Shown here one piece after another: positions 5,906 through 29,046 of a stretch of DNA of 36,116 bases (its first letter is position 1; the number at the start of each line of letters is the position of its first letter). The translations under genes were made by a program, and so were the position numbers. The stretch lies in assembly GCA_937862805.1 (NCBI GenBank), contig CALMDO010000182.1:1-36116 (forward strand), in the 5' to 3' direction. The notes below the pieces were generated by a model, which searched no databases, had not been told where the DNA came from, and saw nothing but the letters and a program-made list of their open reading frames with translations. Origin of the DNA: an uncultured Bacteroidota bacterium (GTDB taxonomy: Bacteria; Bacteroidota; Bacteroidia; Bacteroidales; FEN-979).

Positions 5906-7399
5906 TTATTTCCCTGCTATGGCACCTCCGACCCGTGTCATGGCACAACGGAAACCAACAAAAGCAGAGGCGTCGTTTTCGTCCATGTAGCGACGCATCC
6001 CGGGGTTCAGATAGTAGGCGGGATCTTTCCAACTGCCACCCTTGTAGACGCGGGCGTGGTCGGTGATCAGAGAGCTCACCCCGTACTCATACATCATGGT
6101 AGTAGCGCTTGAATCTCTTACAGCTTCCCGCCAAAGGTTATTGTCAACGTTAGAGGCGAAGTCGCCATCAAGGTAGTTGATGTTGTCAGCCTGACGGTAA
6201 TTTTTCCGGTTCATCGCTTCGGCGGTTGTGATATCGCGGTATTTGATACGGCCCAGGCTGTCTTTTTCAGCAAGGTAGCCTTCAGCGTCGCGTTCCGGTG
6301 TTTTGAACACGTTGCCCCTGAAGGGACGGAAATCGGCGACCTCGATCCCGTTGAGGGGACGGTAAACGTCGAGTACCCATTCGCTAACGTTTCCGGCCAT
6401 GTTGTAAAGGCCATAATCGTTGGGGAAATAGGAGCCGCAGGGGGCAGGAATGTCGGCGCCGTCATTCAGGTTGCCGGCAACCCCCATGTAATCACCTTTT
6501 CCGCGTTTGAAGTTATCCATGAAACTGCCATAGTATTTTGATTCGGCAATGCGAACATAGTTCCCGTTCCAGGGATAGGTTCTTCTTTCGACAATGCGTT
6601 CTTTCTTTGTGTTACCTATCAGTCCGAAGGCGGCGTATTCCCATTCAGCCTCGGTCGGGAGCCGGTATTTGGGTAACATGATCCCGTCTTCCATTTTGAC
6701 TTTCCGTGTACCGGTACCGTTGGGGTTCAGATCGGGAAGGGCTTTGTCAACCAAACCTTCATATTGACCAGCCAGGTAAGCTTCGGTGTTGAAATTGTTT
6801 TCGTTTTTCTGTGCCGGATCCATCGAGAGAATTCCTTTCCGGATCAGGAGCATTTCATTCACCCGGTCGGTCCGCCAGAGGCAGTAGTCGTTGGCTTGTA
6901 CCCAACTGACACCAACAACCGGGTAGTTCCGGTAGGCAGGATGGCGGAAGTAATACTCAGTGAGCGGTTCGTTGTAGGAGAGTTTGTCGCGCCAAACCAG
7001 CGTGTCGGGCAGGGCTTTCCTGTACACACCCGGGTAATCGGTGCCGTAAACTCTGTTGAGCCAGTAGAGGTATTCAATATAATCGAGGTTTCGGACCTCT
7101 GTTTCATCCATGTAAAAACTGGCAACGGAAACCCGGCGGGGTTGATTGTTCCAGTCGAACATGACATCATCCTGTGTCTGACCCATGGTAAAGGTGCCCC
7201 CTTCAATAAAAACAAGGCCCGGGCCGGTTTCCTGATCGGCGAACTTCCTGACTTCAAAACCGCCGTTTTTCGGGTTGTTGTATTCCCAACCGGTGGTGCC
7301 GGAAACTTTGGAACTGCTTCCCTTTTTATTACAGGAGACAGAGATGGTTGTCAGGGCGATGAGCAGTAAAGAAACCTGAAGAAATTGACTGATTTTCAT
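5906..7399 (-). CDS. gldJ: GldJ-like gliding/T9SS lipoprotein (FGE-sulfatase/SUMF1 fold)
   Basis: Lipoprotein signal ending ISVSC; TGWEYNNPKNGGFEV; FIEGGTFTMGQ, YRLPTEAEWEYAA, GNVSEWVLDVY, GGSWKDPAYYLNPGMRRY. Adjacent to murF and a porU/porV locus. Confidence 0.82.
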   Translation of the reverse strand: MKISQFLQVSLLLIALTTISVSCNKKGSSSKVSGTTGWEYNNPKNGGFEVRKFADQETGPGLVFIEGGTFTMGQTQDDVMFDWNNQPRRVSVASFYMDETEVRNLDYIEYLYWLNRVYGTDYPGVYRKALPDTLVWRDKLSYNEPLTEYYFRHPAYRNYPVVGVSWVQANDYCLWRTDRVNEMLLIRKGILSMDPAQKNENNFNTEAYLAGQYEGLVDKALPDLNPNGTGTRKVKMEDGIMLPKYRLPTEAEWEYAAFGLIGNTKKERIVERRTYPWNGNYVRIAESKYYGSFMDNFKRGKGDYMGVAGNLNDGADIPAPCGSYFPNDYGLYNMAGNVSEWVLDVYRPLNGIEVADFRPFRGNVFKTPERDAEGYLAEKDSLGRIKYRDITTAEAMNRKNYRQADNINYLDGDFASNVDNNLWREAVRDSSATTMMYEYGVSSLITDHARVYKGGSWKDPAYYLNPGMRRYMDENDASAFVGFRCAMTRVGGAIAGK

Positions 7400-7508: not shown

Positions 7509-8474
7509 CTAAAAAACGGGGCATTTTATTGCTTTGATCACCCTTCTTTTTTCGACGGGGTTGAAACGCCATGATGCGGATACTTCGTGAGCCCCGCCCG
7601 AAGCGTTGTTCAGCTTACTTATCGAATAGTCATAACTGTAAGCGATGAAAAGGTTTTTCCAATGAAAACCCAACATCGGGACAACGGCATCGGAATTTTC
7701 GAAATTAAACCGGTACCATGCACCCACCACCAGCGGATCAAAGGTGAGATATATTCCGAGATTCAATTGATGAAACATCCCCTGTTGCTGATACAGGACA
7801 TTGGGGGATAACGAGAACTCTCGCTCCTCGTCACGATAACCATTGTCCAGGTTAATCAGCGCGCCGGCATGCATTGTCAGTTTCATGTACAAGGGAGATC
7901 GTTCGTTTGAAGAAAAGCCGACATCGGGCTGGGAGAGGTGATCAACCGCTACTCCTCCATACAATACCTCGTTGTACATCAGAAAAATACCGGCTCCAAA
8001 ATCGGGAACACCGACAGAGGAGTGATCCAACTTCTCATAAAGGTAAGAGTCCCGATCCCTGGTTGTAAGTTTCGAAGTGTTCAATGCCGTCATGTAATAC
8101 CCTGCCCTGACAGCGCCGCTGGCCTGAAGTTTTTCGCTGATTTTAAATTGGTATGCGTACATGAGGCTGACGGAGGCAGTAGTAAGGGCCCCGTTCCCTG
8201 TCTGGTCGAACCAGCAATCGATCCCGGCCCCGCCGTGCATTGGCTCCAGGTACATATCGTAGGAAGCGTGGTAGGTGACATAAGCGTTGCCCAATCCCGG
8301 CCACTGGTTCCGGTAGTTGACCACCACCCTGGGAGCCCCGGTGCTGCCGGAAAGGGCGGGATTCAGAGTCAGGGGATTGGCATAAAATTGAGAGAATTCA
8401 ATGTCCTGGGAAAATGAATAGGATCCTGCTAAAAAAAACAGTACAAAAAAAAATAAAGGACGGATTCCCTGCAT
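7509..8474 (-). CDS. PorP/SprF family T9SS outer-membrane protein
   Basis: Signal peptide MQGIRPLFFFVLFFLAGSYSFS, then QDIEFSQFYANPLTLNPALSGSTGAPRVVVNYRNQWPG, the family hallmark. ORF extends to 8537; ATG at 8474 fits the signal peptide. Confidence 0.9.
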   Translation of the reverse strand: MQGIRPLFFFVLFFLAGSYSFSQDIEFSQFYANPLTLNPALSGSTGAPRVVVNYRNQWPGLGNAYVTYHASYDMYLEPMHGGAGIDCWFDQTGNGALTTASVSLMYAYQFKISEKLQASGAVRAGYYMTALNTSKLTTRDRDSYLYEKLDHSSVGVPDFGAGIFLMYNEVLYGGVAVDHLSQPDVGFSSNERSPLYMKLTMHAGALINLDNGYRDEEREFSLSPNVLYQQQGMFHQLNLGIYLTFDPLVVGAWYRFNFENSDAVVPMLGFHWKNLFIAYSYDYSISKLNNASGGAHEVSASWRFNPVEKRRVIKAIKCPVF

Positions 8475-8683
8475 TCTGGTAAACCGGTTAAATCGAAGAT
8501 ATCGGCGGCACTGCATCAGTGGCAATGCGATGAACAAATTTCAACGCATCCCCTTAAGCAGGCAACAATATACCTGCCTCTAAAACGTTAATTTTGTCGC
8601 TGATCATATAGTTCTGCAAAAATTTTTCCGGCCGGAAACTTTTTTGCAGTCCCTCTTGTCTTAATGTAATATGGATCGAATCT

Positions 8684-11600
8684 ATGAATAACTGCTATAC
8701 TTCCCCGGTCGTTTATTGGATTGTTCTTCTCTTTCTGACCTTTTCGATACAAGCACAGCAGGTGGTGGTAAAAGAAGCTGTCATTGACTGGGATCCTCCC
8801 GAAACTTGCGGCAATCAACCGGGCAGCGCTATGATCCTCACATTCCAGGGCTCCGTTACCCGTGCCGATTTCGGATTGCTTCCATTCTGGAACTGGTCTT
8901 TCATCAGTGAATCGGCTGAAGAGGAGATCATCCACATCACCCTCGGGAACCTTGTTTTTGAACCCGTCCCTGTCGATCCGGAACATCCCTTGCAGGATCA
9001 ATTCAGGATCCCCGATTCTATAACCTTCATTACAGGGCTCTCCATTCAGCGAAAAATGCCACGGATGACCATCTCCCTGTTGCCCCTGAGAGTAAACCCT
9101 GTAACCGGCCAACCGGAAAAGCTGACGTCATTCACCCTGGAAATGCTCCTTTCAAAAAAATCTTTTCCGGAAGGAAATCTGAAGGAGACGGTGGCCTATG
9201 CCGACCATTCGGTACTGGCCTCCGGGAAATGGTACAAATTTGCCATCACTTCAGGCGGAATTTGCCAACTGACATACGACGACCTGAAAAGCGCCGGGAT
9301 TGATGTGACCTCGATCAACCCTGTCAACCTGCGCATTTACGGCAATCAGGGTGGAATGCTCCCCGAAGCCAATGCAACGGAAAGAATTGATGATCTGCGC
9401 GAAAACGCAATCTATGTTTCAGGAGAGCAGGATGGGCGCTTTGATCCCGGGGATTACATCCTTTTCTATGGACAGTCACCCGATACCTGGAGCTATACCT
9501 CTTCTGACCAACTTTTTCATCATAAAAAGAACATCTACGCCGATCAAACCTGCTATTTTTTAAATTTCGATCTGGGAGCAGGCAAACGCATTGCCGACCT
9601 GCCCTCATCCACCGCGCAGCCCACCGTATACATCGACCGTTTCAACGACTACGCCTTTTATGAAAAGGAGGATCTGAATTTTATCAAATCGGGAAAAGAC
9701 TGGTGGGATAACCAATCTTTTGAACTGACGCTGTCGCGCAACTACACCTTTACTTTTCCCAATATCGATACGGAAAGCCAGGCGGCGCTTACCGTTAAAG
9801 TCGCCGCCAGGTCGCTCATCACCAGTTCCTGGTTTGTCGCTTCGGTGGATGGCCGGAAATTATTGACCCTGGAGATCGACCATACCACTTCGGGCTATGA
9901 AAGCGATTATGCAAAGGAAAACCAGGGTACCGCAACCTTTACACCGAAAAGCCAGGTGCTGACAACCAATTTGCTTTACAATAAATCATCCGGTTCGATC
10001 GGGTATCTTAACTACCTGGAAATCAATGCAACACGAATGTTGGTCCAATCCGGTTCCCAGATGCCTTTCCGGTCGGCAAAATCGGTCATGACAGGAGGCA
10101 TTGCGGAGTATTCGCTGACCGGTAACGGGCAGAACCTGCAGATCTGGGACGTTACCACCACCGGGGAGGCTCGCCGTCTGGTTCCTGAAAAATTCGGGAA
10201 CAACTATACCTTCAGGATTGAATCGGGTATGCTCAGGGAATTCATCTCTTTCGATGGCAGTACTTACATCAAACCCGTCTTCGCGGGAACTGTCGCGAAC
10301 CAGGACCTTCACGCAACCCTTCCGGTCGATTACATCATGGTGGTCCATCCCGATTTTCTTCCTGAAGCGCAGCGGCTGGCAGCTTTTCACGAACAATATT
10401 CCGGGCTCTCCACCTTCATCACTACACCCCAGCTGATCTATAACGAGTTTTCCTGCGGGTCACAGGATATAACAGCGATCCGCGATTTTGTAAGAATGAT
10501 GTACAACAGGGCGCTACCCGGTGAGGAACCGCGTTACCTGTTACTTTTCGGAGATGCTTCCTACGATTACAAAAACAGGGTACAGAACAACACTAATTTC
10601 GTTCCGGCTTTTGAATCGGCAAACTCCCTTGCTCCCGACAAATCTTTTGTTTCCGATGATTACTTCGTTTTGTTGGACCCCAATGAAGGACAGGCCGCCA
10701 CCGGCGATCTGGATATGGGCGTAGGACGGCTACCTGTCTCCACCCTGGCGGAAGCCACTGCCATCGTCAACAAGATCCTTCACTATTGTTCCAATTCCGA
10801 TTCAGTAAAGAACGATTGGAGAAATGTTGTGACTTTCGTGGCGGATGATCAAAACGAAGGGGGCAATTTGTTCGTGAAGGATTCAGAAATATTGGCAGCG
10901 ATCATCGATACAAGCAATCTTTCCTGCAATATCGATAAGATCTATTCGGATGCCTACACCATGGTCAGTACACCCGGAGGCAACCGGTACCCGGAAGTCA
11001 ATGAGGTCATCAATAAAAGAGTCACCAGGGGAAGCCTGATCATGAATTATGTGGGGCACGGGGGTGAAGTAGGATGGGCCCATGAAAGAATATTGGAAGT
11101 TGCCGACATCAAGGGATGGAGGAATCTGGACAACCTGCCTGTCTTCGTGACTGCAACCTGTGAATTCAGCCGTTTCGACGATCCCGAACGAACCTCAGCC
11201 GGAGAATGGGTCTTCCTCAATGAAAACGGCGGAGGAGTAGCGCTCTTTACTACTTCCCGGCTGACTTACGCCGGTACGAACAGGTCGCTGCTGATCAATT
11301 TTTATAAGAGCATTTTCAGGAAAAACAATGGAACTTACCTGAAACTGGGGGATCTCCTGATGGCGGCAAAATACGGGATGGGTTCCTATGCCAACATCCA
11401 TTCGTTTGTCCTGTTGGGTGATCCCGCGATTCAAATGGCCTATCCCGAACTCAGGGTTGTAACCACCTCCATCAACGGCCAACCCCCGTCAAATATACCG
11501 GATACCCTTAAAGCCCTTTCGGAAATCACCATCACCGGAGCAGTACTGAATCCGGATGGAACAGTCGCCAGCGACTTTTCCGGGACCGTCTTCCCGACGG

Positions 11601-12529
11601 TATACGATAAGTCGGTAGAAGTGTGGACCAAAGCCAATTATGGGTTGGATGAAAAGTATCCTTTCTGGCTCAGGAAAAATCCTGTTTACAAAGGGAAAGT
11701 ACAGGTGACCCATGGCCTTTTCTCTTTTACCTTCATTGTTCCGAAAGACATAGCTTATCAGTACGGGATCGGCAAAATCAGTTATTATGCCCGTAGCCCG
11801 GAAACCGATGCGCAGGGGTACGATGAAAACATCCAGGTAGGTGGGTACAATGCTTCTGCTACTCCTGATGATACAGGACCAGCCATCCGCCTCTTTCTGA
11901 ACGACCGGAGCTTCCTCTCAGGTGGAATCACCGGACCCTCTCCCGTGTTGTTTGCCGACGTCAGCGATTCATCCGGGATCAATACGGTGGGAAACGGCAT
12001 CGGTCATGATCTGACCGCCGTACTCGACGGGAAAAACTCCGATCCGTTGATCCTGAATGATTATTATGTTTCCAACCTCAACACTTTTAAAAGCGGTACC
12101 ATTGCCTATCCCATGTCAACACTGGCTGAAGGCGAACACAGCCTGACCCTCAAAGTCTGGGATGTCTATGACAACTCTTCGGAAGCCGGGATCACTTTCG
12201 TGGTGGTCAATTCTACTGAATTTGCTTTCTCGCACCTGATCAATTATCCAAACCCGATGCGCGATCAGACTACATTTTCATGGGAAACCAATCAGGTGAA
12301 CCAACCGTTGGAAGTTGAAATTACCATCTATACCCTGGATGGCAACAGGGTTAAGACCATCCGCCAGACCATCTACAGTCAGAGTTTCCGTAATACGATG
12401 TTCCAATGGGACGGAACCCTTGATAACGGTCAGAAAGTCTCTTCGGGAATATATGTCTATCGGCTTCAGGCTATGTTACCAGATGGGACGGCAAAGCACC
12501 TTACCTCCAAATTGGTAGTGATTCGCTAA
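8684..12529 (+). CDS. porU: PorU-like T9SS sortase, C25 (gingipain) family, full length
   Basis: 1281 aa, signal peptide, NYVGHGGEVGW (His) and VFVTATCEFSRFDDPERTSAGEW (Cys), C-terminal sorting-type domain (NYPNPMRDQTTF...GIYVYRL). Confidence 0.9.
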   Translation: MNNCYTSPVVYWIVLLFLTFSIQAQQVVVKEAVIDWDPPETCGNQPGSAMILTFQGSVTRADFGLLPFWNWSFISESAEEEIIHITLGNLVFEPVPVDPEHPLQDQFRIPDSITFITGLSIQRKMPRMTISLLPLRVNPVTGQPEKLTSFTLEMLLSKKSFPEGNLKETVAYADHSVLASGKWYKFAITSGGICQLTYDDLKSAGIDVTSINPVNLRIYGNQGGMLPEANATERIDDLRENAIYVSGEQDGRFDPGDYILFYGQSPDTWSYTSSDQLFHHKKNIYADQTCYFLNFDLGAGKRIADLPSSTAQPTVYIDRFNDYAFYEKEDLNFIKSGKDWWDNQSFELTLSRNYTFTFPNIDTESQAALTVKVAARSLITSSWFVASVDGRKLLTLEIDHTTSGYESDYAKENQGTATFTPKSQVLTTNLLYNKSSGSIGYLNYLEINATRMLVQSGSQMPFRSAKSVMTGGIAEYSLTGNGQNLQIWDVTTTGEARRLVPEKFGNNYTFRIESGMLREFISFDGSTYIKPVFAGTVANQDLHATLPVDYIMVVHPDFLPEAQRLAAFHEQYSGLSTFITTPQLIYNEFSCGSQDITAIRDFVRMMYNRALPGEEPRYLLLFGDASYDYKNRVQNNTNFVPAFESANSLAPDKSFVSDDYFVLLDPNEGQAATGDLDMGVGRLPVSTLAEATAIVNKILHYCSNSDSVKNDWRNVVTFVADDQNEGGNLFVKDSEILAAIIDTSNLSCNIDKIYSDAYTMVSTPGGNRYPEVNEVINKRVTRGSLIMNYVGHGGEVGWAHERILEVADIKGWRNLDNLPVFVTATCEFSRFDDPERTSAGEWVFLNENGGGVALFTTSRLTYAGTNRSLLINFYKSIFRKNNGTYLKLGDLLMAAKYGMGSYANIHSFVLLGDPAIQMAYPELRVVTTSINGQPPSNIPDTLKALSEITITGAVLNPDGTVASDFSGTVFPTVYDKSVEVWTKANYGLDEKYPFWLRKNPVYKGKVQVTHGLFSFTFIVPKDIAYQYGIGKISYYARSPETDAQGYDENIQVGGYNASATPDDTGPAIRLFLNDRSFLSGGITGPSPVLFADVSDSSGINTVGNGIGHDLTAVLDGKNSDPLILNDYYVSNLNTFKSGTIAYPMSTLAEGEHSLTLKVWDVYDNSSEAGITFVVVNSTEFAFSHLINYPNPMRDQTTFSWETNQVNQPLEVEITIYTLDGNRVKTIRQTIYSQSFRNTMFQWDGTLDNGQKVSSGIYVYRLQAMLPDGTAKHLTSKLVVIR

Positions 12530-12542
12530 AACTGTACTTTTA
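12512..12542 (+). promoter_or_regulatory. Candidate internal promoter between the two porU-like genes
   Basis: TTG (12512-12514), 20 bp, TACTTTTA (12535-12542), one mismatch from TAnnTTTG. Confidence 0.5.
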
Positions 12543-12556
12543 CATTTTTTTTATCC

Positions 12557-15500
12557 ATGCGCCTTCGCTCTGGTTTTTTACTTCTGATTCTGGTCTTCCT
12601 CCTTTTACTACCGATTATATCCAACGCGGCAGGTGAAAGAAAAGCCCATTCGGTACTGGCTACCGGTGAATGGTACAAAATTGCCGTGATGAATTCCGGG
12701 ATTCACAAACTCACCGGCGCTGACCTCATGGCAATGGGTATCGATCTGTTTGCAGTGAACCCGGCCAACCTAAGGCTTTTCGGAAACGGAGGGGGAATGC
12801 TCCCCGAATCCAACGCGGCAGAAAGAGCCGATGACCTCCTCGAAAACCCGGTAGCGCTCTTCGACGGAGGCGATGGCCGCTTCGATCCCGACGATTACCT
12901 GCTGTTCTATGGTGAATCACCAGACCAATGGATTTTTGATGCCTCTACACGGTATTTCAACCATCAGAAAAACCTCTATTCCGATACCACTTTTTATTTC
13001 CTGAACCTGGGATCAACGCCGGGAAAAAGGGTACAAAACCTCCCTTCGACCACGGAAACCCCCAATTATTTTGCCACGACCTTCAACACTTATACTGTTC
13101 ACGAAACTGACTCGCTAAACCTCATCAAATCAGGAAAGGAATGGTATGGAGAAATCTTCGACAACACCCATTCCATCAGGGAATTCCCATTTATATTGAC
13201 CGATATTGATTCCCTTTTTCCCTTGCGCCTTAGAACAGCCGTTGCGACCAAAGCCCCTAACGTCAGCTATTTTGTCATCTTTTCCAATGGACGGAGAATC
13301 GACTCGGTCAAAGTCGACGCAACCAGTCCGGGTGACATATCATGGTTCGGGAAACAAAAAGTTAAACTCTCCATGATCGGCTTTCCTGATGAAGACCAAC
13401 GACTTACTCTTCAGTACAAATTGCCTGTCTCCAACGCCTTGGGCTGGTTGAATTATTTGGAAATCAATTATGTAAGAAAACTTATCTGGAGGGCTCCGCA
13501 AATGGAATTCAGAAATACTGCAGGTTACGGGCCCGATATGATCACGCAATATTACCTCCAAAAGGCTCATTCACAGATCACCATCTGGGATGTGACAAAC
13601 ATTGCTGCCATACGACAATTAGAGACCACCCTGACCGACAGCCTGATGATCTTCAGACAAGCGACTGACAGCCTGCGCCAGTTCATCGCCTTCGACGGTT
13701 CTTTTTATTACCCGGTGATTCCCCTCGGGAAAATTCCAAACCAGGATCTGCATGGATTAGCAAGCCCTCAACTGATCATTGTGACCCATCCTGCTTTTTT
13801 GGCCCAGGCTAACCGGTTGGCCGACTTTCATACAAGGGAAAACGAGCTGACCGTGCAGGTTGTGACCACCGGGACGGTGTATAACGAATTCGGCGGAGGC
13901 AGTCCTGACGCCACAGCCATCCGCGATTTAGTCAGGTTCTTTTATGAAAAAGCCGATTCTTTGTCGCGCCCCCGCTACCTTTTACTGATGGGCGACGGAT
14001 CGTACGACCCAAAAAACCGCATTCCGGGAAACAATAACTTCATACCTACTTTTCAATCGACAGAATCTTTGTCACATACCGGAAGTTTCGTAACCGACGA
14101 TTATTACGGAATCCTCGATGAACCTTATGGACAGGAAGCCAACGGCCCCATCCGGATCGGGATCGGCCGGTTTCCGGTGAGCGATACCGTGACAGCCAAC
14201 GTAATGGTGAACAAGATCATCCATTATTCCGATCACGCGTTCCCGATTACTTCCGATTGGCGCAACACCATCACTTTTGTAGCCGATGATGAAAACCGGA
14301 ACCTCCATTTTCAACAGGCAGAAAAACTGGCTGCCATCGTTGATACCGCCTATCCCGTTTTTAACCTTAATAAGATTTATTTTGACGCCTATCAGCGAAC
14401 ACAGATTCCGGGAGGATACCGTTTCCCGGATGCCACGAAAGCTTTGAATGATGCAGTGGAAAAGGGTTCTTTGATCGTCAATTACACCGGACACGGAGGC
14501 GAAGCAGGATGGGGATATGAACAGGTTTTGACCCTGGCCGACATCGACAGTTGGACCAATGCCGATAAACTCCCGGTTTTCTTTACCGCTACCTGTGAAT
14601 TCAGCCGGTTTGATAATCCCGAACGCTACACTGCAGGTGAAAAGGTGATCCTTCATCCGGGAGGAGGGGCTGTTGCCCTCTTTTCAACCACCCGCCTGGC
14701 CTACGCGGGATATAACATCAAACTGAATATCAGCTTCTTACAGCACCTGATGGACCGGGATCAGGAAGGAAAATACCTCCGGATGGGTGACCTGATCCTG
14801 TTATCGAAAAACCTCAACGGAAACATTCCCCAGCTCAAAAACTTTGTCCTGCTGGGCGATCCTGCCCAACATCTGGCTTTTCCACAATACAATGTCAGAA
14901 CTGTCTCCATCAACGATGAGGCCGTCAACCAGCCGGATACCGTACTGGGTTTATCGACGGTGACGGTTAAAGGATTGGTTGAAGACATTGCGGGACAGCC
15001 TGTTACAAACTTCAATGGAACGTTGACAGCCAAGGTTTATGACAAACCGGTGACCTATTCCACCCTGGGAAACATTCCTCCGCCTGAGACCTATCCCGAA
15101 CCTTTTACAGCCCGGAACTCCCTTCTTTTTAAAGGGTACGCACCGGTGGACCAGGGGGCGTTTACCTTCTCTTTTGTGGTTCCCAAAGGAATTGCACTGC
15201 AGTTCGGCAAAGGGAAACTCAGCTATTATGCCCGGGATGACCAGGCGGATGCAGCAGGATATTGCGACCAGATCATCGTAGGAGGCAGTGACCCTCAAAT
15301 CGACCCTGAGAATGAAGGACCTTCTATCGCCTTGTACATGGACAACAGGGATTTCCAAAACGGTGGCAGAACCAGCATCCAGCCCGTGCTTTTAGCCGAT
15401 CTGTACGACACCAACGGAATCAATTTCACCGGGTTGGGAATCGGTCATGAAATTGAAGCGGTGCTGGATCATGACCGGGCGCATGCGGTGGTGCTGAATG

Positions 15501-15973
15501 ACCAATACACCCCTGATTTCAACTCCTACACGCGAGGTTCGTTGAGCTGGCAATTGGAGGAGCTTACGCAAGGCATTCATACGCTCACGCTGAAAGCCTG
15601 GGATTTGTTCAACAATTCATCAGAAAAAGAGATCTCTTTCTACGTCTTCCCCCAAAGTACCATTACTGTCAAACAGGTGATGAACATTCCCAATCCTGTC
15701 AGGGATCACACGTGGTTTATCTTTCAACCTGAAACCAGCATCCAGGGGGATCTGGAGGTAAGAATCACCATCTATGATATAACCGGCCGGCCTGTTCATA
15801 CCCTTGAAGGGAAAGTGGAGGAGGTCGGCAACGGGCCCGCAAAATTTTACTGGAATGGTACAACCAACGCAGGTACAGTACTGAGAAATGGAGTTTATCC
15901 GTATAAACTGACCTTTAGGGGAAGTGACGGAAGTTACACCGAAATCTCTCAAAAATTGTTAATTCTCCGGTGA
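12557..15973 (+). CDS. Second PorU-like C25-family protease, lacking the N-terminal region of the first
   Basis: 1138 aa; HSVLATGEWYKIAVMNSGIHKLTGADL aligns with HSVLASGKWYKFAITSGGICQLTYDDL of the first copy; NYTGHGGEAGW and FFTATCEFSRFDNPERYTAGE; C-terminal sorting-type domain. Confidence 0.88.
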   Translation: MRLRSGFLLLILVFLLLLPIISNAAGERKAHSVLATGEWYKIAVMNSGIHKLTGADLMAMGIDLFAVNPANLRLFGNGGGMLPESNAAERADDLLENPVALFDGGDGRFDPDDYLLFYGESPDQWIFDASTRYFNHQKNLYSDTTFYFLNLGSTPGKRVQNLPSTTETPNYFATTFNTYTVHETDSLNLIKSGKEWYGEIFDNTHSIREFPFILTDIDSLFPLRLRTAVATKAPNVSYFVIFSNGRRIDSVKVDATSPGDISWFGKQKVKLSMIGFPDEDQRLTLQYKLPVSNALGWLNYLEINYVRKLIWRAPQMEFRNTAGYGPDMITQYYLQKAHSQITIWDVTNIAAIRQLETTLTDSLMIFRQATDSLRQFIAFDGSFYYPVIPLGKIPNQDLHGLASPQLIIVTHPAFLAQANRLADFHTRENELTVQVVTTGTVYNEFGGGSPDATAIRDLVRFFYEKADSLSRPRYLLLMGDGSYDPKNRIPGNNNFIPTFQSTESLSHTGSFVTDDYYGILDEPYGQEANGPIRIGIGRFPVSDTVTANVMVNKIIHYSDHAFPITSDWRNTITFVADDENRNLHFQQAEKLAAIVDTAYPVFNLNKIYFDAYQRTQIPGGYRFPDATKALNDAVEKGSLIVNYTGHGGEAGWGYEQVLTLADIDSWTNADKLPVFFTATCEFSRFDNPERYTAGEKVILHPGGGAVALFSTTRLAYAGYNIKLNISFLQHLMDRDQEGKYLRMGDLILLSKNLNGNIPQLKNFVLLGDPAQHLAFPQYNVRTVSINDEAVNQPDTVLGLSTVTVKGLVEDIAGQPVTNFNGTLTAKVYDKPVTYSTLGNIPPPETYPEPFTARNSLLFKGYAPVDQGAFTFSFVVPKGIALQFGKGKLSYYARDDQADAAGYCDQIIVGGSDPQIDPENEGPSIALYMDNRDFQNGGRTSIQPVLLADLYDTNGINFTGLGIGHEIEAVLDHDRAHAVVLNDQYTPDFNSYTRGSLSWQLEELTQGIHTLTLKAWDLFNNSSEKEISFYVFPQSTITVKQVMNIPNPVRDHTWFIFQPETSIQGDLEVRITIYDITGRPVHTLEGKVEEVGNGPAKFYWNGTTNAGTVLRNGVYPYKLTFRGSDGSYTEISQKLLILR

Positions 15974-16081: not shown

Positions 16082-17278
16082 ATGAAGATCCGCTTCCTCT
16101 TTCTGATTTCCTTAGTGATGATTTCGGCTACCCTCTTTGGGCAAGATACGGAACCCAATGATGGCAGTCGCGTTATTTCTACTGCTGTTCCTTTCCTTAC
16201 GATCGCCCCTGACGCCAGGGGAGGAGGGATGGGAGATGTCGGAGTAGCTACCTCCTCCGATGCCTATGCCATGTATTGGAACCCTGCAAAATATGCTTTC
16301 AGCGATAAGTCGTTCGGATTCGGAATCGGTTATGTACCCTGGCTGAGAGGTTTGGTCAACGATATCGGATTGGCTTCGCTCACCGGGTTCGGAAAGATCG
16401 GCGACAAACAGGCAGTCGCGGCCTCCCTGCGCTTCTTTTCGATGGGTTCGGTGATGTTTACGAATGATGTCGGACAGGAACTGGGGGAAGTAAAACCCAA
16501 TGAGTGGGCCATCGATGCAACGTACGCCAGAAAATTCTCGCAGGAATTCAGCGGCGCCGTTGCGGCCCGGTTCATCTATTCGAACCTGGTCCCGGTCAAT
16601 TATACCGCTTATGATGTTCGCCCCGGTACCTCTTTTGCGGCAGATGTGGCGATTTATTACCACCATGAAATGGATATCAACGGATTGAGTGGCGCTTCCA
16701 TCGATGCCGGGCTGGACATTTCCAATATCGGTGCAAAAATGTCGTACAGCAGCACTTCAGTCATCAAGGATTTTATTCCTACAACCCTGCGTATAGGCCC
16801 CTCCTTTACCATGGATATTGACGACTACAACCGCCTTTCTTTTGCAGTTGATTTTACCAAGTTGCTGGTGCCCACTCCGCCGGTCTATGCCATGGATTCA
16901 AGCGGGAACCCGATTGTCGGGCCGGATGGCAAAAAGGAGATCGAAAAGGGTTATGATCCTGACGTTTCCATTGTCAAAGGGATGATCCAGTCATTCTATG
17001 ATGCGCCTTACGGATTCAAGGAAGAACTTCAGGAGATCAACGTGGCAATCGCTGCAGAATATTGGTACAACAAACTGTTCGCGATTCGCGCAGGCTATTT
17101 TTATGAATCGAAATACAAGGGAAACCGCCAGTTTTTTACCCTTGGCGCCGGTTTACGTTATAATGTTTTCGGACTTGACTTCTCCTACCTGCTGCCCGTC
17201 CACAACAACAACCCCTTACAGAATACCCTTCAATTTACCCTGCTGTTCAATTTCGACAACAAGAAATCAGGTGGTTGA
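16082..17278 (+). CDS. porV: T9SS outer-membrane protein PorV (LptO)
   Basis: Signal peptide; VISTAVPFLTIAPDARGGGMGDVGVATSSDAYAMYWNPAKYAF, characteristic of PorV; FadL-like barrel. Confidence 0.93.
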   Translation: MKIRFLFLISLVMISATLFGQDTEPNDGSRVISTAVPFLTIAPDARGGGMGDVGVATSSDAYAMYWNPAKYAFSDKSFGFGIGYVPWLRGLVNDIGLASLTGFGKIGDKQAVAASLRFFSMGSVMFTNDVGQELGEVKPNEWAIDATYARKFSQEFSGAVAARFIYSNLVPVNYTAYDVRPGTSFAADVAIYYHHEMDINGLSGASIDAGLDISNIGAKMSYSSTSVIKDFIPTTLRIGPSFTMDIDDYNRLSFAVDFTKLLVPTPPVYAMDSSGNPIVGPDGKKEIEKGYDPDVSIVKGMIQSFYDAPYGFKEELQEINVAIAAEYWYNKLFAIRAGYFYESKYKGNRQFFTLGAGLRYNVFGLDFSYLLPVHNNNPLQNTLQFTLLFNFDNKKSGG

Positions 17279-17360: not shown

Positions 17361-17837
17361 ATGAATTTCAGAGTAGGTTTCGGATTTGATACCCATGCCC
17401 TGATCCCCGGATCGGGGCTGCGTTTGGGCGGGGTGACCATTCCATTTGACAAAACCTTCAAGGCCCATTCCGACGGCGATGTCCTGATTCATGCCATCAT
17501 CGACGGATTGCTTGGCGCAGCAGGATTGCCTGATATCGGAAACCAGTTTCCCGACACAGATCCGGCTTACAAAGGGATTGATAGCGCGATTCTTTTGAAG
17601 GAGACGATTGAAAGGATCACTGCCAGGGGTTTTTCAGTCGGGAACATCGATACCACCATCGTGCTTCAAAATCCGAAAATCGCCACCCGGATCCCCGCCA
17701 TCGTTGATACCCTTTCTAAAACCATGAACCTCGCCCCTGATTGCATCTCAGTAAAGGCCAAAACCAGCGAAAAACTAGGGTTTATAGGTCGTGAAGAAGG
17801 AGTGTCGGCCTATGCCGTGGTGCTTCTGACCCGGTAA
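17361..17837 (+). CDS. ispF: 2-C-methyl-D-erythritol 2,4-cyclodiphosphate synthase
   Basis: RVGFGFDTHAL, LGGVTIPFDKTFKAHSDGDVLIHAIIDGLLGAAGLPDIGNQFPDTDP, KAKTSEKLGFIGREEGVSAYAVVLL. Confidence 0.97.
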   Translation: MNFRVGFGFDTHALIPGSGLRLGGVTIPFDKTFKAHSDGDVLIHAIIDGLLGAAGLPDIGNQFPDTDPAYKGIDSAILLKETIERITARGFSVGNIDTTIVLQNPKIATRIPAIVDTLSKTMNLAPDCISVKAKTSEKLGFIGREEGVSAYAVVLLTR

Positions 17838-23278: not shown

Positions 23279-25336
23279 ATGAACCCCAAATTGAAATACC
23301 TTACCCCCTTGAAACTGGTTATTTTGTTTCTCGGGATGTCGATGTTTTTTATCTCCTGTAAAAAATCGGATGATTCCACCGGCCCGAATGGAGAGACCCC
23401 CGTCAAATCCATGAAAGACCTTGTTATTCCTTATAATTTTGAATGGAACACCACAGTAAACATTGTTTTTTCAATTCAGGCGAAGGATAACAGGGACTAT
23501 CCCCTGACAGGCGTCAGATTCAGGGTTTACACTGCCAGTCCTGACTCCGGAGGAGTCTACATGTTCGGTGGAGTTACTGATGCGACCGGTACCTGGACCA
23601 CTACACAGCCCTTGCCCGCCTACATGACGAAAGTAACAGTGACGAACAATTATGTCGGATTGATCCGCGAACAAGTGATGGCCGTTACCGGCGGTCAGGT
23701 TACCGGATTGTTTGGAGGACTTGCTCCTAAGCCTTTACAACAAAAAGCTTCTTCGGAGATCATTCCCAGTCCCCTGCCGGGTGTTTATTACCTGGGAACC
23801 TTTAACAGCCAGGGTGTTCCCAACTACCTGGTTTCGCCCAACGATCCCGTGGATGCTGTTCTTTTGAACGACCTGAATGCCACTTTGCCCGAATACCAGC
23901 CCGTTCCGACTTACCATCCCGAATATTTAAGCAGTACGGTGCCCAATAACCTTCCCCTGACCGAATTGTGCGATCTCTGGGTGACGTATATCACTGAAGG
24001 GGCCGGATGGACCAATTCTGTTGGTTTTTTTGTCTTTGATACCGATAACCCACCTGCCAATGCTGCAGCCATCGATTCAATCAAAGTGGTCTTCCCAAAC
24101 ATGTCGAATGCAGGAAGCAGCGGAGGACTCAATCCCGGGAATAAAGTTTACATGGGCCGCTATCCTGCAGGAAAATCTGTGGGCTGGGTCATCTTTGCGA
24201 ACGGTTGGAACGGATCGAATGTTACCAACGGAAAGTACCGGATATATTCTATTCCCTCGCTGAACCCGGAGACGGATCCCACCCTGAAAAAGCACACCAT
24301 CCTGTTGCGGGATGCCACGCGCTATTCAATCTTATTAGGTTTTGAAGACTGGCGTCGCGACCAGGGGTCGGACCAGGATTTCAACGACGGTATTCTTTAC
24401 ATCAAGGCCAACCCGGTTACCGGTATAAACACCGATGGCATGCCACTGGTTTCGACAACACAGACCGACACCGACGGCGATGGCGTGCCCGACGTGACGG
24501 ATGATTATCCATCAAATCCCCTCAAAGCTTTTAACAATTATTACCCCAATAAGTCCGGCTACGGATCACTGGCCTTCGAAGACCTTTACCCCAGCCAGGG
24601 CGACTATGATTTTAACGATCTGGTAATCAGTTACCGTTTTAATCAGATCACCAATGCCCTGAACCAGGTGGTAGAAGTTCATGCCGAACTGATCCCCGAA
24701 GCCATGGGCGCTACCCTCCATAATAGTTTTGCTTTCCAGATGAACCTCGCTGCAAATTTGGTACAATCGGTTTCCGGTAACGAACTCAGGCATGGTTTCA
24801 TCAATGTTGCTGCCAATGGCGTTGAATCCGGCCAACGTAAAGCGGTCATCGTGGTGTTTGATGATGCCTGGGATCTGCTTCCCCCTGCCGGAGGCGGGAT
24901 TGGGACCAATACAGAACCCGGAGCTCCTTATGTTATCCCTGATACCCTTAACGTCGTCGTTACCCTGAGCCAACCGGTTCCACAATCGGACATCGGACTT
25001 CCTCCCTACAATCCTTTCATCATTATCGACCGTAACCGTGTAAGGGAAGTCCATCTACCCGATTACCCTCCCACCGATCTGGTTGACGGCTCCGATTGGG
25101 GAGATTATTCCGACGACAGCAACCCGGCAATTGGCCGCTATTATAAGACGCAAACCAATTTACCCTGGGCCATCAACATCTCCGATAAGTTCAGCTATCT
25201 CTACGAAAAAGAAGCCATCAACACGGGTTACCTGAAGTTCAACGCATGGGCTGAGAGCGGAGGCGCCCTTTATCCCGATTGGTACGTCAATACCGCCGTC
25301 GGCTACAGAAACAGTTCGAAGATATACAACCATTGA
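23279..25336 (+). CDS. LruC domain-containing lipoprotein with DUF4114-like region and TSP3-like calcium motif
   Basis: Lipobox FFISCKKSDDS; VGFFVFDTDNPP...GWVIFANGW...WRRDQGSDQDFNDGILYI; TDTDGDGVPDVTDDYPSNP; GSLAFEDLYPSQGDYDFNDLVISYRF. Confidence 0.85.
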   Translation: MNPKLKYLTPLKLVILFLGMSMFFISCKKSDDSTGPNGETPVKSMKDLVIPYNFEWNTTVNIVFSIQAKDNRDYPLTGVRFRVYTASPDSGGVYMFGGVTDATGTWTTTQPLPAYMTKVTVTNNYVGLIREQVMAVTGGQVTGLFGGLAPKPLQQKASSEIIPSPLPGVYYLGTFNSQGVPNYLVSPNDPVDAVLLNDLNATLPEYQPVPTYHPEYLSSTVPNNLPLTELCDLWVTYITEGAGWTNSVGFFVFDTDNPPANAAAIDSIKVVFPNMSNAGSSGGLNPGNKVYMGRYPAGKSVGWVIFANGWNGSNVTNGKYRIYSIPSLNPETDPTLKKHTILLRDATRYSILLGFEDWRRDQGSDQDFNDGILYIKANPVTGINTDGMPLVSTTQTDTDGDGVPDVTDDYPSNPLKAFNNYYPNKSGYGSLAFEDLYPSQGDYDFNDLVISYRFNQITNALNQVVEVHAELIPEAMGATLHNSFAFQMNLAANLVQSVSGNELRHGFINVAANGVESGQRKAVIVVFDDAWDLLPPAGGGIGTNTEPGAPYVIPDTLNVVVTLSQPVPQSDIGLPPYNPFIIIDRNRVREVHLPDYPPTDLVDGSDWGDYSDDSNPAIGRYYKTQTNLPWAINISDKFSYLYEKEAINTGYLKFNAWAESGGALYPDWYVNTAVGYRNSSKIYNH

Positions 25337-26658
25337 TCCACCCTGCGAACAAGCCGCTTCTTCAGTCTTTCCTCCTGTTGTCAGCGCTTTTGATCTTCAC
25401 TCAATGCAAAAAAGATACTGCTGACAACGATCTTCCGGGTATTTCTTCGGGAATGGACGGACTCATCATCGAGCGGCTTTTCAACTGGTCGCTTACACGG
25501 GAAGTCGCAGTACGAATCACAGCACTGGATGGGAATGGCCATCCGATACCCCATGTCCGGTTCGATATTTATCAAGGCAGTGTACAGTCACCGGGAGAAC
25601 GCACTTTTGCCGGGGCCACGGACTCCACCGGCGTTTTCGTGACCAACATGGTTTTCCCGATGGATGCGGAAAAAGCAGTGGTAAAGACCTTTTCTCAAGG
25701 TACTGCCGTCGTTCGTGAAGTTACTATCTCTGACAACGCTCTAATTACTGTTTTTGAAGGGTTGGAACGAGATACCACCACCGACAGTGACTGGGACTAC
25801 ATACCCGATGCATTCGATGACTACCCGGCGGATACTGCTCAATCATTCAATAATTATTTCCCCTCGGAAAATCATTTCGCGACGTTGGTTTTCAACGATT
25901 CCTGGCCGGGAGAGAGCAATTATGACTACAATGATGTAGTAATCCGTTACCGTTGCAACTACATCACCAATTTTTTCAACCAGGTGGTTGAAGTTGACAT
26001 TACCCTGGTTCAGGAAGCGGCCGGGAGTACCCGTCACAATGGTTTTGGAATCCAATTCCGGCTGGATCCTTCCTTATTCGACACGGTGAGCGGATCCCGC
26101 CTCACCACGGGGACAATTCATACGGAACTGAAAGGATATGAATCGGTCCCGGGTACGATGATAGTGATCGCTTATGATGACGGGAGAAGCCTCTTTGAAG
26201 GAGGTGATCTTCCGGGGCCCGTCAATACTGTACCGGGAGTTGCTTACAGGAAGCCGGATACCTTGTCTCTTCGCATTGTATTGCCTGAAAACCAATCAAT
26301 TCCGGTGATCATGTTCGGTCTCCCTCCCTTCAACCCCTTCATTTTCACCGATGGCGACCGGAGCCATGAAATCCATCTTCCCGATCATCCTCCCACTGCC
26401 CTGGCGGATACTACCTTGTTTGGAACACTTTCCGATAATTCGCAGCCTTTGATATTCAGATATTACAAGAACCGCAACAACCTGCCCTGGGCTTTGCATT
26501 TTCCGGGCGAATTCAGCTACCTCACCGAAGGATCGGCCCTCATCCGGGGCTATCCCAAATTCGGTGGTTGGACGGAAAGTGACGGTTCCGCTTATCGTGA
26601 CTGGTATTACAAGGAGGGCCAGGGATACCGCAATGAAGGGTATTTATACAGTCATTGA
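25333..26658 (+). CDS. Second LruC domain-containing lipoprotein, shorter paralog
   Basis: TTG start at 25333 gives MIHPANKPLLQSFLLLSALLIFTQCKKDTADND with lipobox; DSDWDYIPDAFDDYPADTAQSFNNYFPSE..FNDSWPGESNYDYNDVVIRYR parallels the first copy. The tracked start at 25279 lies inside the upstream gene. Confidence 0.83.
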   Translation: MIHPANKPLLQSFLLLSALLIFTQCKKDTADNDLPGISSGMDGLIIERLFNWSLTREVAVRITALDGNGHPIPHVRFDIYQGSVQSPGERTFAGATDSTGVFVTNMVFPMDAEKAVVKTFSQGTAVVREVTISDNALITVFEGLERDTTTDSDWDYIPDAFDDYPADTAQSFNNYFPSENHFATLVFNDSWPGESNYDYNDVVIRYRCNYITNFFNQVVEVDITLVQEAAGSTRHNGFGIQFRLDPSLFDTVSGSRLTTGTIHTELKGYESVPGTMIVIAYDDGRSLFEGGDLPGPVNTVPGVAYRKPDTLSLRIVLPENQSIPVIMFGLPPFNPFIFTDGDRSHEIHLPDHPPTALADTTLFGTLSDNSQPLIFRYYKNRNNLPWALHFPGEFSYLTEGSALIRGYPKFGGWTESDGSAYRDWYYKEGQGYRNEGYLYSH

Positions 26659-26661
26659 GGT

Positions 26662-29046
26662 TCAGAAAGGATAACCGATCCCAAAATTCCAGACGATATC
26701 CTTTAACTGCATTTTATCGAAGTACCAACGGTCATTTTCAGGATACCAGGGCACCCTTAGCGGGATGGCAGGATCGAGACGGAAGATGAAGAAGTCAAAA
26801 TCAAGCCTGATTCCAAATCCCGCGTCAATGGCCACTTGTTTAAAGAATCCGGGAAAAGAGAATTTTCCTCCCGGCAGATCGGCCGTCTCTTTCAATAACC
26901 AGATATTGCCGGCATCAACGAAGAGTGCTCCGCGGATCCATTGGTAGATGGGAAACCGGTATTCGATGTTGGCTTCCAGTTGGATGTCGCCGATTTGATT
27001 GAAAGTGTTTTCCTCCTCCGAATGATAGCTTCCGGGCCCAAGGTAGTACATCTTCCATCCCCGCATACCGTTGGCGCCACCCGCAAAGAAAGCCTTTTCG
27101 AAAGGCAGCACGGTGGAGTTTCCGTACGAAATCCCGATCCCGCCATAAAACCGGTAAACCATCGAGAATTTATTGCCCAGGATGTTAAAGTAGCGGAAAT
27201 CGACATCGGGACGGATGTATTGTGAATAGGGTAAACCGAAGAAATTGTACATCCCGCTATCGCTCTTTTTAAGGTTGAAGAGTTTGTCGATCGCGTAAAT
27301 CAGGTTGCCGCCTGTCTCAAAATTGGAGCGGATATAAAAGAAATCTTTGACTTTGTTAACCTTTTGGTTGCTGAAAGTAAAGCTGTATTTCAGTCCTGCC
27401 ACAATGTGATCGGTATACTGATTCCTGAGTCTCCGGTCGGATTGTGAATTGATGACAGAGTCGAAATAAGCATCGGCAAAGACCCTGACCAGAGAAATTT
27501 CAGCGGGGTTGAGGATGTGGCGGATTTTTTCATTCTGCATCCAGGTGTATCCGAAAGTGATGTTGGAGATGTGCCGATCGTAGTCCTGCTGATGCTGGTA
27601 ATTGTACCCCACGGTGATGGTCGTTTTGGGTTTGAAATTTTTCGACATTTTTTCAGGGCGGATGGGTAGCAGGAACTGGGGAAAAGTGAGTGAAGCGTTC
27701 GCGCCCAGCTCGATGGTGTTGAAGAAGGCAGAGCCTCCGGTGCTTCCCGAAGCTTGCATCTGAAGGGATCCGCTGAGGTTGATCCTGAAAAGTTGTGCTC
27801 CCCTGAACACATTGCGATTCTGGTATCCTATATTACCTTGTATCCCGAAAGCCCCGCCCGAGTTGGTTCCGTCGGTGGTCACGGTAAAAGAGTGTGCCGG
27901 CGATCGTGACAACTCCACTTTGCAATTGAGGATATCTTTTCCGGGGCCTCTTATCGGCGACGGATCGGGGGTCTCCTCAAATTCCAGGTTGATGTAACGA
28001 AATACCTGTAAACCAGATAGTTGCGAATAGGTTTGATTGATGTCAGTCAGGTTGTAGGTGCCTCCCGGATAGAGAAAAATGGACTGGGCTATGGTTCGGG
28101 GTTTGACTTTGAATTTATTACGTGTGAGAAAGTAGAAAGTACCCGGCGGTTGTCCTTTGATGGCACTCTCATAATGCTTAACCAGCGTGTCGTAGCGCAT
28201 GGTATCGGTCATCAGGTGATCGAATTCGGGATAAACAAAAATCTTGTTGATAAAGTATCTTTTGTGAGGAACTGGCAGCGCGAGTCCGAAATTTCCGATG
28301 GAGGGGGCTACCGGGTTGGTGATCTCAAGGGTGATCGCGACACGTTTTTGATTTAAGTTGGTATCGACCCGGTAAACGATATAGATGTTCGAGAAGTTGT
28401 AAAAACCGTAATTCTGAAGGTTGGAGGTGATCCGGCTCCGTTCACTGTCGAGCAGGTAAGTATCAAAATTTGCACCCTTCCGGATGAGGCTTCTGGTCGT
28501 GTCGCGGAACACGAACCGGGCCACCTGGGTATCGGGTATGGCATAATAGATCTCTCTGACCGTGTAAGGTTTTGTTGTTTTCACCAGGTATTCAACAATG
28601 GCTTTCTTTTTATGGAAAATGACCGTATCTCTGATGGTGGAATGAAAATAACCTTTGTTGGTAAGATACATTCCCATCTGCTTTGCAGTGACGGTTATCA
28701 TGCCTGTATCCAGCAAAACCGGGGCGGTTCCCACCTTGGTCCTGAGCCATTTCTTGAATTTCGAATCTTCTCCCTGGCTTCCCAGGTTATAAAAGGCAAT
28801 GTTGGTCCGGAATAACCCCAGAAGTTTCTTGTTGGGTCTTTGCTGAAGGTAAGGGTCCAGATCTTCGGCCGGTACCGACCGGGGAGTCAGTTTGATCCTG
28901 TTTCCGGTCAGGAGGTATTCGTTGGGTGCAAAGTTTTTTGTCACGTTGCATCCGGTCATCATCTCCATGAGGAGGAGCAGGAGGAAAGCCCTGGTGAAGG
29001 TTCTGCGATTTGTAGTCCGGATTTGCAAACAAGTCCTATTTTTCAA
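26662..29046 (-). CDS. tamL: TamL-like BamA/TamA-family outer-membrane lipoprotein
   Basis: Lipobox MEMMTGC; FAPNEYLLTGNRIKL; POTRA-like region; C-terminal barrel with LPFEKAFFAGGANGMRGWKMYYLGPGSY and LEANIEYRFPIYQWIRGALFVDAGNIWLL. Non-ATG (TTG) start. Confidence 0.85.
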   Translation of the reverse strand: MKNRTCLQIRTTNRRTFTRAFLLLLLMEMMTGCNVTKNFAPNEYLLTGNRIKLTPRSVPAEDLDPYLQQRPNKKLLGLFRTNIAFYNLGSQGEDSKFKKWLRTKVGTAPVLLDTGMITVTAKQMGMYLTNKGYFHSTIRDTVIFHKKKAIVEYLVKTTKPYTVREIYYAIPDTQVARFVFRDTTRSLIRKGANFDTYLLDSERSRITSNLQNYGFYNFSNIYIVYRVDTNLNQKRVAITLEITNPVAPSIGNFGLALPVPHKRYFINKIFVYPEFDHLMTDTMRYDTLVKHYESAIKGQPPGTFYFLTRNKFKVKPRTIAQSIFLYPGGTYNLTDINQTYSQLSGLQVFRYINLEFEETPDPSPIRGPGKDILNCKVELSRSPAHSFTVTTDGTNSGGAFGIQGNIGYQNRNVFRGAQLFRINLSGSLQMQASGSTGGSAFFNTIELGANASLTFPQFLLPIRPEKMSKNFKPKTTITVGYNYQHQQDYDRHISNITFGYTWMQNEKIRHILNPAEISLVRVFADAYFDSVINSQSDRRLRNQYTDHIVAGLKYSFTFSNQKVNKVKDFFYIRSNFETGGNLIYAIDKLFNLKKSDSGMYNFFGLPYSQYIRPDVDFRYFNILGNKFSMVYRFYGGIGISYGNSTVLPFEKAFFAGGANGMRGWKMYYLGPGSYHSEEENTFNQIGDIQLEANIEYRFPIYQWIRGALFVDAGNIWLLKETADLPGGKFSFPGFFKQVAIDAGFGIRLDFDFFIFRLDPAIPLRVPWYPENDRWYFDKMQLKDIVWNFGIGYPF

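Follow-up and report, generated by a model that had tools for sequence, protein, structure and literature searches.

In the window, by which we mean the whole stretch of 36,116 nucleotides that was analysed, two genes encoding PorU-family proteins lie one behind the other on the forward strand. PorU cleaves the CTDs of T9SS cargo proteins and attaches the cargo, and it forms complexes with PorV, PorQ and PorZ. The first gene, porU-A (8684..12529, + strand), encodes a long form of 1281 amino acids, in which a signal peptide, a prodomain-like N-terminal domain, an N-terminal cluster, a C25 catalytic domain, two Ig-like domains and a CTD follow one another. It is separated by 27 bp from porU-B (12557..15973, also on the + strand), which encodes a short form of 1138 amino acids without the prodomain-like domain. 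Downstream lie porV (16082..17278, +; NF033710, 483 bits), the sole high-scoring PorV gene of the genome, and ispF (17361..17837, +; TIGR00151), a conserved neighbour found in identical gene order at two further loci (L235 and L237). Upstream of porU-A, on the opposite strand, are a gene for a PorP/SprF-family outer membrane protein (7509..8537, − strand; TIGR03519, 239 bits), the conserved divergent neighbour gldJ (5906..7399, − strand; TIGR03524, 485 bits), which also occurs at L235 and L236, and murF.

PorU-A and PorU-B align with 44% identity over 1115 amino acids (residues 175-1281 and 31-1138, respectively; E=0), from the common motif HSVLA(S/T)G(K/E)WYK onwards. Both exceed the 420-bit cut-off of the T9SS sortase PorU model (NF033707) about three-fold, A with 1301 bits (model positions 1-1094) and B with 1222 bits (1-1095), and both match the structure of P. 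gingivalis PorU (6za2) along their whole common length, to the end of 6za2. An AlphaFold model of PorU-B (pLDDT 88) has the same structure as its best match in the PDB (E=4e-85). We rejected an identity as PorU2 (NF052324), whose cut-off of 450 bits is reached neither by A (193 bits) nor by B (168 bits). The C25 catalytic domain (PF01364, 344 bits in each protein) spans residues 550-918 of PorU-A (10331..11437, +) and 407-770 of PorU-B (13775..14866, +). As located in an alignment of 229 PorUs, the catalytic histidine lies in the motif GHGGE (His792 of A, codon 11057..11059; His646 of B, codon 14492..14494; both +) and the catalytic cysteine in TATCEFSRFD (Cys826 of A, codon 11159..11161; Cys680 of B, codon 14594..14596; both +). 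A reading of the DNA from its sequence alone (the sequence-only reading) had described adjacent paralogues of these lengths with both motifs, and its coordinates, lengths, motifs and gene order were correct. It had also given both proteins sorting-type C-termini, and each C-terminus indeed matches the Ig-like FlgD_ig model, barely over the cut-off, while the type A sorting model TIGR04183 is reached by A only (23.2 bits, with a cut-off of 23). The shorter N-terminus that it ascribed to PorU-B is genuine: 174 residues precede the HSVLA anchor in A, and 30, including the signal peptide, in B.

Both proteins further contain a putative latency β-hairpin segment (residues 973-1011 of PorU-A, 11600..11716, +; residues 827-867 of PorU-B, 15035..15157, +), the length of which is steady, at 38-40 amino acids across A copies and 39-43 across B copies. 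In PorU the latency hairpin belongs to the first Ig-like domain, and the hairpin role of the segments in A and B is presumed from P. gingivalis PorU. The entry title of that structure reads 'dimeric latent PorU', and P. gingivalis PorU is kept latent by a hairpin that is swapped between two protomers (PMC10202324).

The N-terminal domain that PorU-B is missing comprises about 150 amino acids (residues 20-173 of PorU-A; 8741..9202, +) and has a gingipain-prodomain-like fold. In a Foldseek search of the whole PDB with its AlphaFold model (pLDDT 92), ranks 1-6 were all prodomains of RgpB or Kgp (4ief, 5mun; probability 1.00, E-values from 1e-5 to 1.6e-3, query-normalised TM-scores of 0.47-0.56), and the next match had E=0.18. 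The sequence profile of the domain also had the RgpB prodomain (4ief_A) as its top match, at an insignificant E=0.21, and a search for sequence matches to Propeptide_C25 (PF08126) found 1 among 34 members (E=0.025) and none for the window. In the gingipains RgpB and Kgp a prodomain of this fold is likewise N-terminal to a C25 peptidase, but there it directly precedes the catalytic domain, whereas the PorU domain is separated from its peptidase by about 370 residues. Long-form PorUs (NF052318) have the same kind of N-terminal extension as PorU-A, although PorU-A scores below the cut-off of that model (31.6 bits over residues 12-152; cut-off 40), and the name of that family is silent on the gingipain-prodomain fold found here. 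From the modelled fold we infer a zymogen-type role for the domain of PorU-A, and the same model suggests that long-form PorUs in general could be made as zymogens, which offers a testable hypothesis for how they might be inactive before export.

To place the pair in context we used two samples, one of 159 genomes from the phylum and one of 158 genomes from the order Bacteroidales. That a single PorU is the usual state of a T9SS, as the sequence-only reading had assumed, agrees with the sampled PorU-positive genomes beyond the order, all 109 of which have one PorU (the window's own genome aside). In one of these single-PorU genomes the lone PorU is broken into two frames (G231:C3), and another PorU has an in-frame TAG (G073:C108); each is either a sequencing error or a pseudogene. 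Within the Bacteroidales sample, PorU was found in 141 of the 158 genomes and matched at least twice in 38, a number that includes fragments and unlinked copies, with about 22 genomes having a tandem on one contig. Both copies were matched in every one of 25 genomes of the window's family, and the tandem pair is spread patchily over some 16-19 Bacteroidales families. The named carriers comprise one Lentimicrobium and otherwise uncultured Bacteroidales, many of which come from lake metagenomes. In carriers the two genes are on the same strand and always in the order A then B, mostly with gaps of a few to tens of bp; this fixed order and the short gaps suggest that A and B may share one transcript. 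One genome (G020, locus L094) has a triple array, A-B-B', in which B has been duplicated once more. Recent, separate PorU duplications outside the A/B clade were seen at L123 (G112) and L115/L116 (G026), one of them tandem and the other unlinked; in a FastTree phylogeny neither the G112 duplication nor the second copies that lie unlinked in G026, G088 and G156 belong to the A/B pair.

The N-terminal domain does not follow the division into first and second copies. In the window's family (f1) it is B that has lost the domain, in families f6 and f111 it is A, and in one group of loci (L164-L166 and L177) it is both copies; a short A copy at L102 is a contig-end artefact. As the domain has been lost from A, from B or from both, depending on lineage, it does not define either copy, and we discarded length as a marker of A versus B because of the independent losses from A.

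The FastTree phylogeny of 229 PorUs groups almost all first copies with one another and almost all second copies likewise (support for B 0.995), over 16 or more families, the exceptions being two second copies of family f4, which fall outside B, and the first copy of L117, which falls outside A. Our main tree (IQ-TREE, LG+C20 PMSF, 57 rows; supports are ultrafast bootstrap/SH-aLRT) has all B copies in one clade (100/98) and sets A and B together apart from most other single PorUs (95/90). Support is moderate for the A side (87/85), which has two single-copy genomes nested inside, and weak for many of the deep branches within A and within B. A quick 64-row LG+C20 tree that included the fast-evolving f4 pair recovered all 23 B copies as monophyletic (99), with the f4 copy L112_B inside B, and L117_A lies on the A side in both C20 trees. 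L065 and L077, long-branched PorUs of genomes beyond the order, fall inside the A side of the 64-row tree, without strong support. Forcing A and B of the window's family together was rejected (delta lnL 51, AU p=0.0125). A recent or family-specific duplication, which the sequence-only reading had named among the findings that would speak against its proposal, is rejected by this test and by the monophyly of B across families; the copies form separate, old clades. As read from these trees, the A/B pair goes back to a single old duplication in a large part of the Bacteroidales. The distances between genomes measured on A and on B are correlated (r=0.95 over 820 pairs), with a median B/A ratio of 1.24 and the larger distance on B in 98% of the pairs.

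Both active sites had been proposed to survive under selection, and this is borne out: all 229 PorUs, every B copy included, retain the catalytic His and Cys, and for G006 versus G011, the only genome pair close enough for the calculation (synonymous sites were saturated in others), whole-gene dN/dS is.017/.143 for A (~0.12) and.012/.077 for B (~0.16). By this measure both copies are under purifying selection. An alignment of A against B has 65 universally conserved columns and only one position with type-II divergence, which is Thr861 in PorU-A (codon 11264..11266, +) and Ala715 in PorU-B (codon 14699..14701, +). An HMM profile alignment sets Thr861 opposite Gln282 of the gingipain RgpB, a residue of the S1 loop that contacts P1 (PMC4357240, PMC4626109), so the divergent position would be expected to line the cutting site. 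With the reservation that related sequences are not independent counts, the position is Thr in all 57 A copies; among 47 B copies it is Ala in 38, Thr in 6 and Ser in 3, and among 125 other PorUs it is Val in 90, Ala in 19, Ile in 10 and Thr in 1. The single outside Thr belongs to copy 1 of L117, itself the first member of a tandem pair, and the six B copies with Thr all come from the window's family (L094 and the L164-L168/L177 group). The residue is Ala in several of the closest single-PorU relatives, which makes it probable that the change took place in A.

PorV and PorZ do not follow the number of PorUs. Each of 60 genomes has one clear PorV gene together with weaker members of the family, whatever its number of PorUs (in G000, one PorV of ~416 bits and two weaker members), and each of 26 genomes searched has one PorZ, again regardless of PorU number. 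Duplication of PorV or PorZ alongside PorU was thus rejected, and since both are single, a second full attachment complex is lacking. Within the A clade, three genomes (G171, G116 and G132) have A alone, with PorV directly downstream, and have lost B; their genes are in the same setting as those of the window, with gldJ and murF on one side and porU-porV-ispF on the other. No genome that was looked at closely has B by itself, and A is therefore most readily taken as the core copy. Type A CTD candidates exceed 460 in each of two single-PorU genomes (G158 and G103), and among up to 109 candidates scored per genome, the genomes that lost B have at least 16 (G171), 28 (G132) and 84 (G116) CTD matches. 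A tie between PorU dosage and the number of CTD cargo proteins is unsupported among these scored candidates. Genomes with a single PorU thus handle CTD candidates in equal or larger numbers, and a second PorU is not generally needed for them.

Taking together two complete PorUs in A-B order, with catalytic dyads and under purifying selection, a single PorV and PorZ, divergence at one S1-loop position and a prodomain-like domain that A has and B has lost, all of which are read directly from the sequences, we think the chances somewhat better than even that these are two co-expressed and functionally diverged PorU sortases acting on one PorV/PorZ, with A as the core enzyme and B as an accessory one. 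One operon would yield both PorU-family CTD-signal peptidase/sortases, which would leave the cell via the T9SS through their own CTDs, be held by PorV and serve a common PorV/PorZ attachment machinery. PorU-A would be the core sortase, controlled by a zymogen-type prodomain as well as by the putative hairpin segment that serves dimer latency in P. gingivalis, and PorU-B an accessory sortase with another P1 or acceptor preference, for example for released versus anchored cargo or for a subset of CTDs. Such a different preference would explain why B has been kept so long with its chemistry intact, and why some lineages have lost it. However, the specificities of A and B might not differ, there being one fixed divergence between them, and the contact of RgpB Gln282 with P1 being a main-chain one; the six B copies that share Thr with A also speak against a difference. 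A more elaborate version, which we offer tentatively, would have PorU-A (with a Thr S1 loop and usually a prodomain) and PorU-B (mostly with Ala) share one PorV and handle different cargo or acceptors, with latency split between an intramolecular prodomain and an intermolecular hairpin; this would hold for a large share of the Bacteroidales, one that is uncultured.

The main rival follows from the latency of P. gingivalis PorU, which depends on a hairpin between protomers: A and B could be mutual inhibitors or activators within one attachment complex, a hetero-oligomer for control and not a pair of substrate specificities. This arrangement, which we consider unlikely, is in keeping with the hairpin exchange in the latent P. 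gingivalis dimer (PMC10202324; 6za2), with the conserved length of the putative hairpin region in both copies, with tight co-encoding in a fixed order next to one PorV, and with the loss of the prodomain from A or from B according to lineage, a pattern that would fit if a single prodomain often sufficed for a pair. The close correlation of A and B distances also fits it, but would be expected from a common vertical history as well; moreover, A works without B where B has been lost, and the L164-L166 and L177 pairs have no prodomain on either copy. The near-equal chemistry of the two sequences, with so many universal columns to one divergent position, could also mean that B is a redundant copy kept for the amount of enzyme, without a role of its own, and its faster evolution, its occasional loss (including from G171 and G132, with few CTD cargo proteins) and the gain of a third copy in G020 are consistent with this. 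We doubt such an explanation, in that the retention of two copies across many families under purifying selection is long for redundancy, and in that single-PorU genomes include those with the most CTD candidates and G116, with 84 CTD matches, lost B; copy number does not follow the need for dosage. Lastly, the patchy occurrence of the pair among families and the weakly supported deep branches within A and B would allow the tandem operon to have spread between families by horizontal transfer, its function being the same as with two diverged sortases; the shared genomic setting of the window and the B-loss genomes, and the uniform presence of the pair in the window's family, make this very improbable.

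On balance we regard the A/B pair as a variant of a known enzyme family that is widespread in uncultured Bacteroidales. P. gingivalis PorU (6za2) shares with A and B the His-Cys dyad and the CTD, and its hairpin has a putative counterpart in both, but it is a lone short-form PorU, whereas here there is a tandem pair, one member of which has an extra N-terminal domain. PorU2 (NF052324) is a related C25 sortase-like protein, and the tandem pair arose from a different duplication, within PorU proper. The GldK/GldJ and GldN/GldO pairs of the gliding T9SS (PMC10202324) are likewise T9SS duplicates that have been kept together, but they are ring or lipoprotein components and not sortases. The sequence-only reading had asked if tandem PorU was already a described arrangement; our search, which was confined to the open-access literature, turned up no description of PorU in tandem or in pairs. 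According to a 2023 review, how PorU sorts anchored from released cargo is unsolved (PMC10202324). An anciently diverged PorU pair in one T9SS with a single PorV and PorZ lets anchoring and release be separated genetically, and the pair may split tasks that other bacteria manage with one PorU.

Several further genes were noted. About 4.6 kb downstream of porV is a gene for a T9SS plug protein (PF17116; 21860-23140, +). It is followed by two adjoining genes for DUF4842 proteins (23279-26658, +), the ends of which overlap and the first of which also contains DUF4114; they are likely tandem paralogues. An Omp85-family gene (26665-29046) adjoins the gene for a 914-amino-acid protein (29039-31780, − strand) that combines a T9SS type A sorting domain with dockerin and cohesin matches, and T9SS cargo with cohesin and dockerin modules is, to our knowledge, uncommon. 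Beyond the PorU family, G000 encodes five more large C25 peptidases (L003-L007, L238; G000:C186:6369-23126 and G000:C184), four of the five within one stretch, and at L238 the long open reading frames that were scanned terminate in type A sorting domains.
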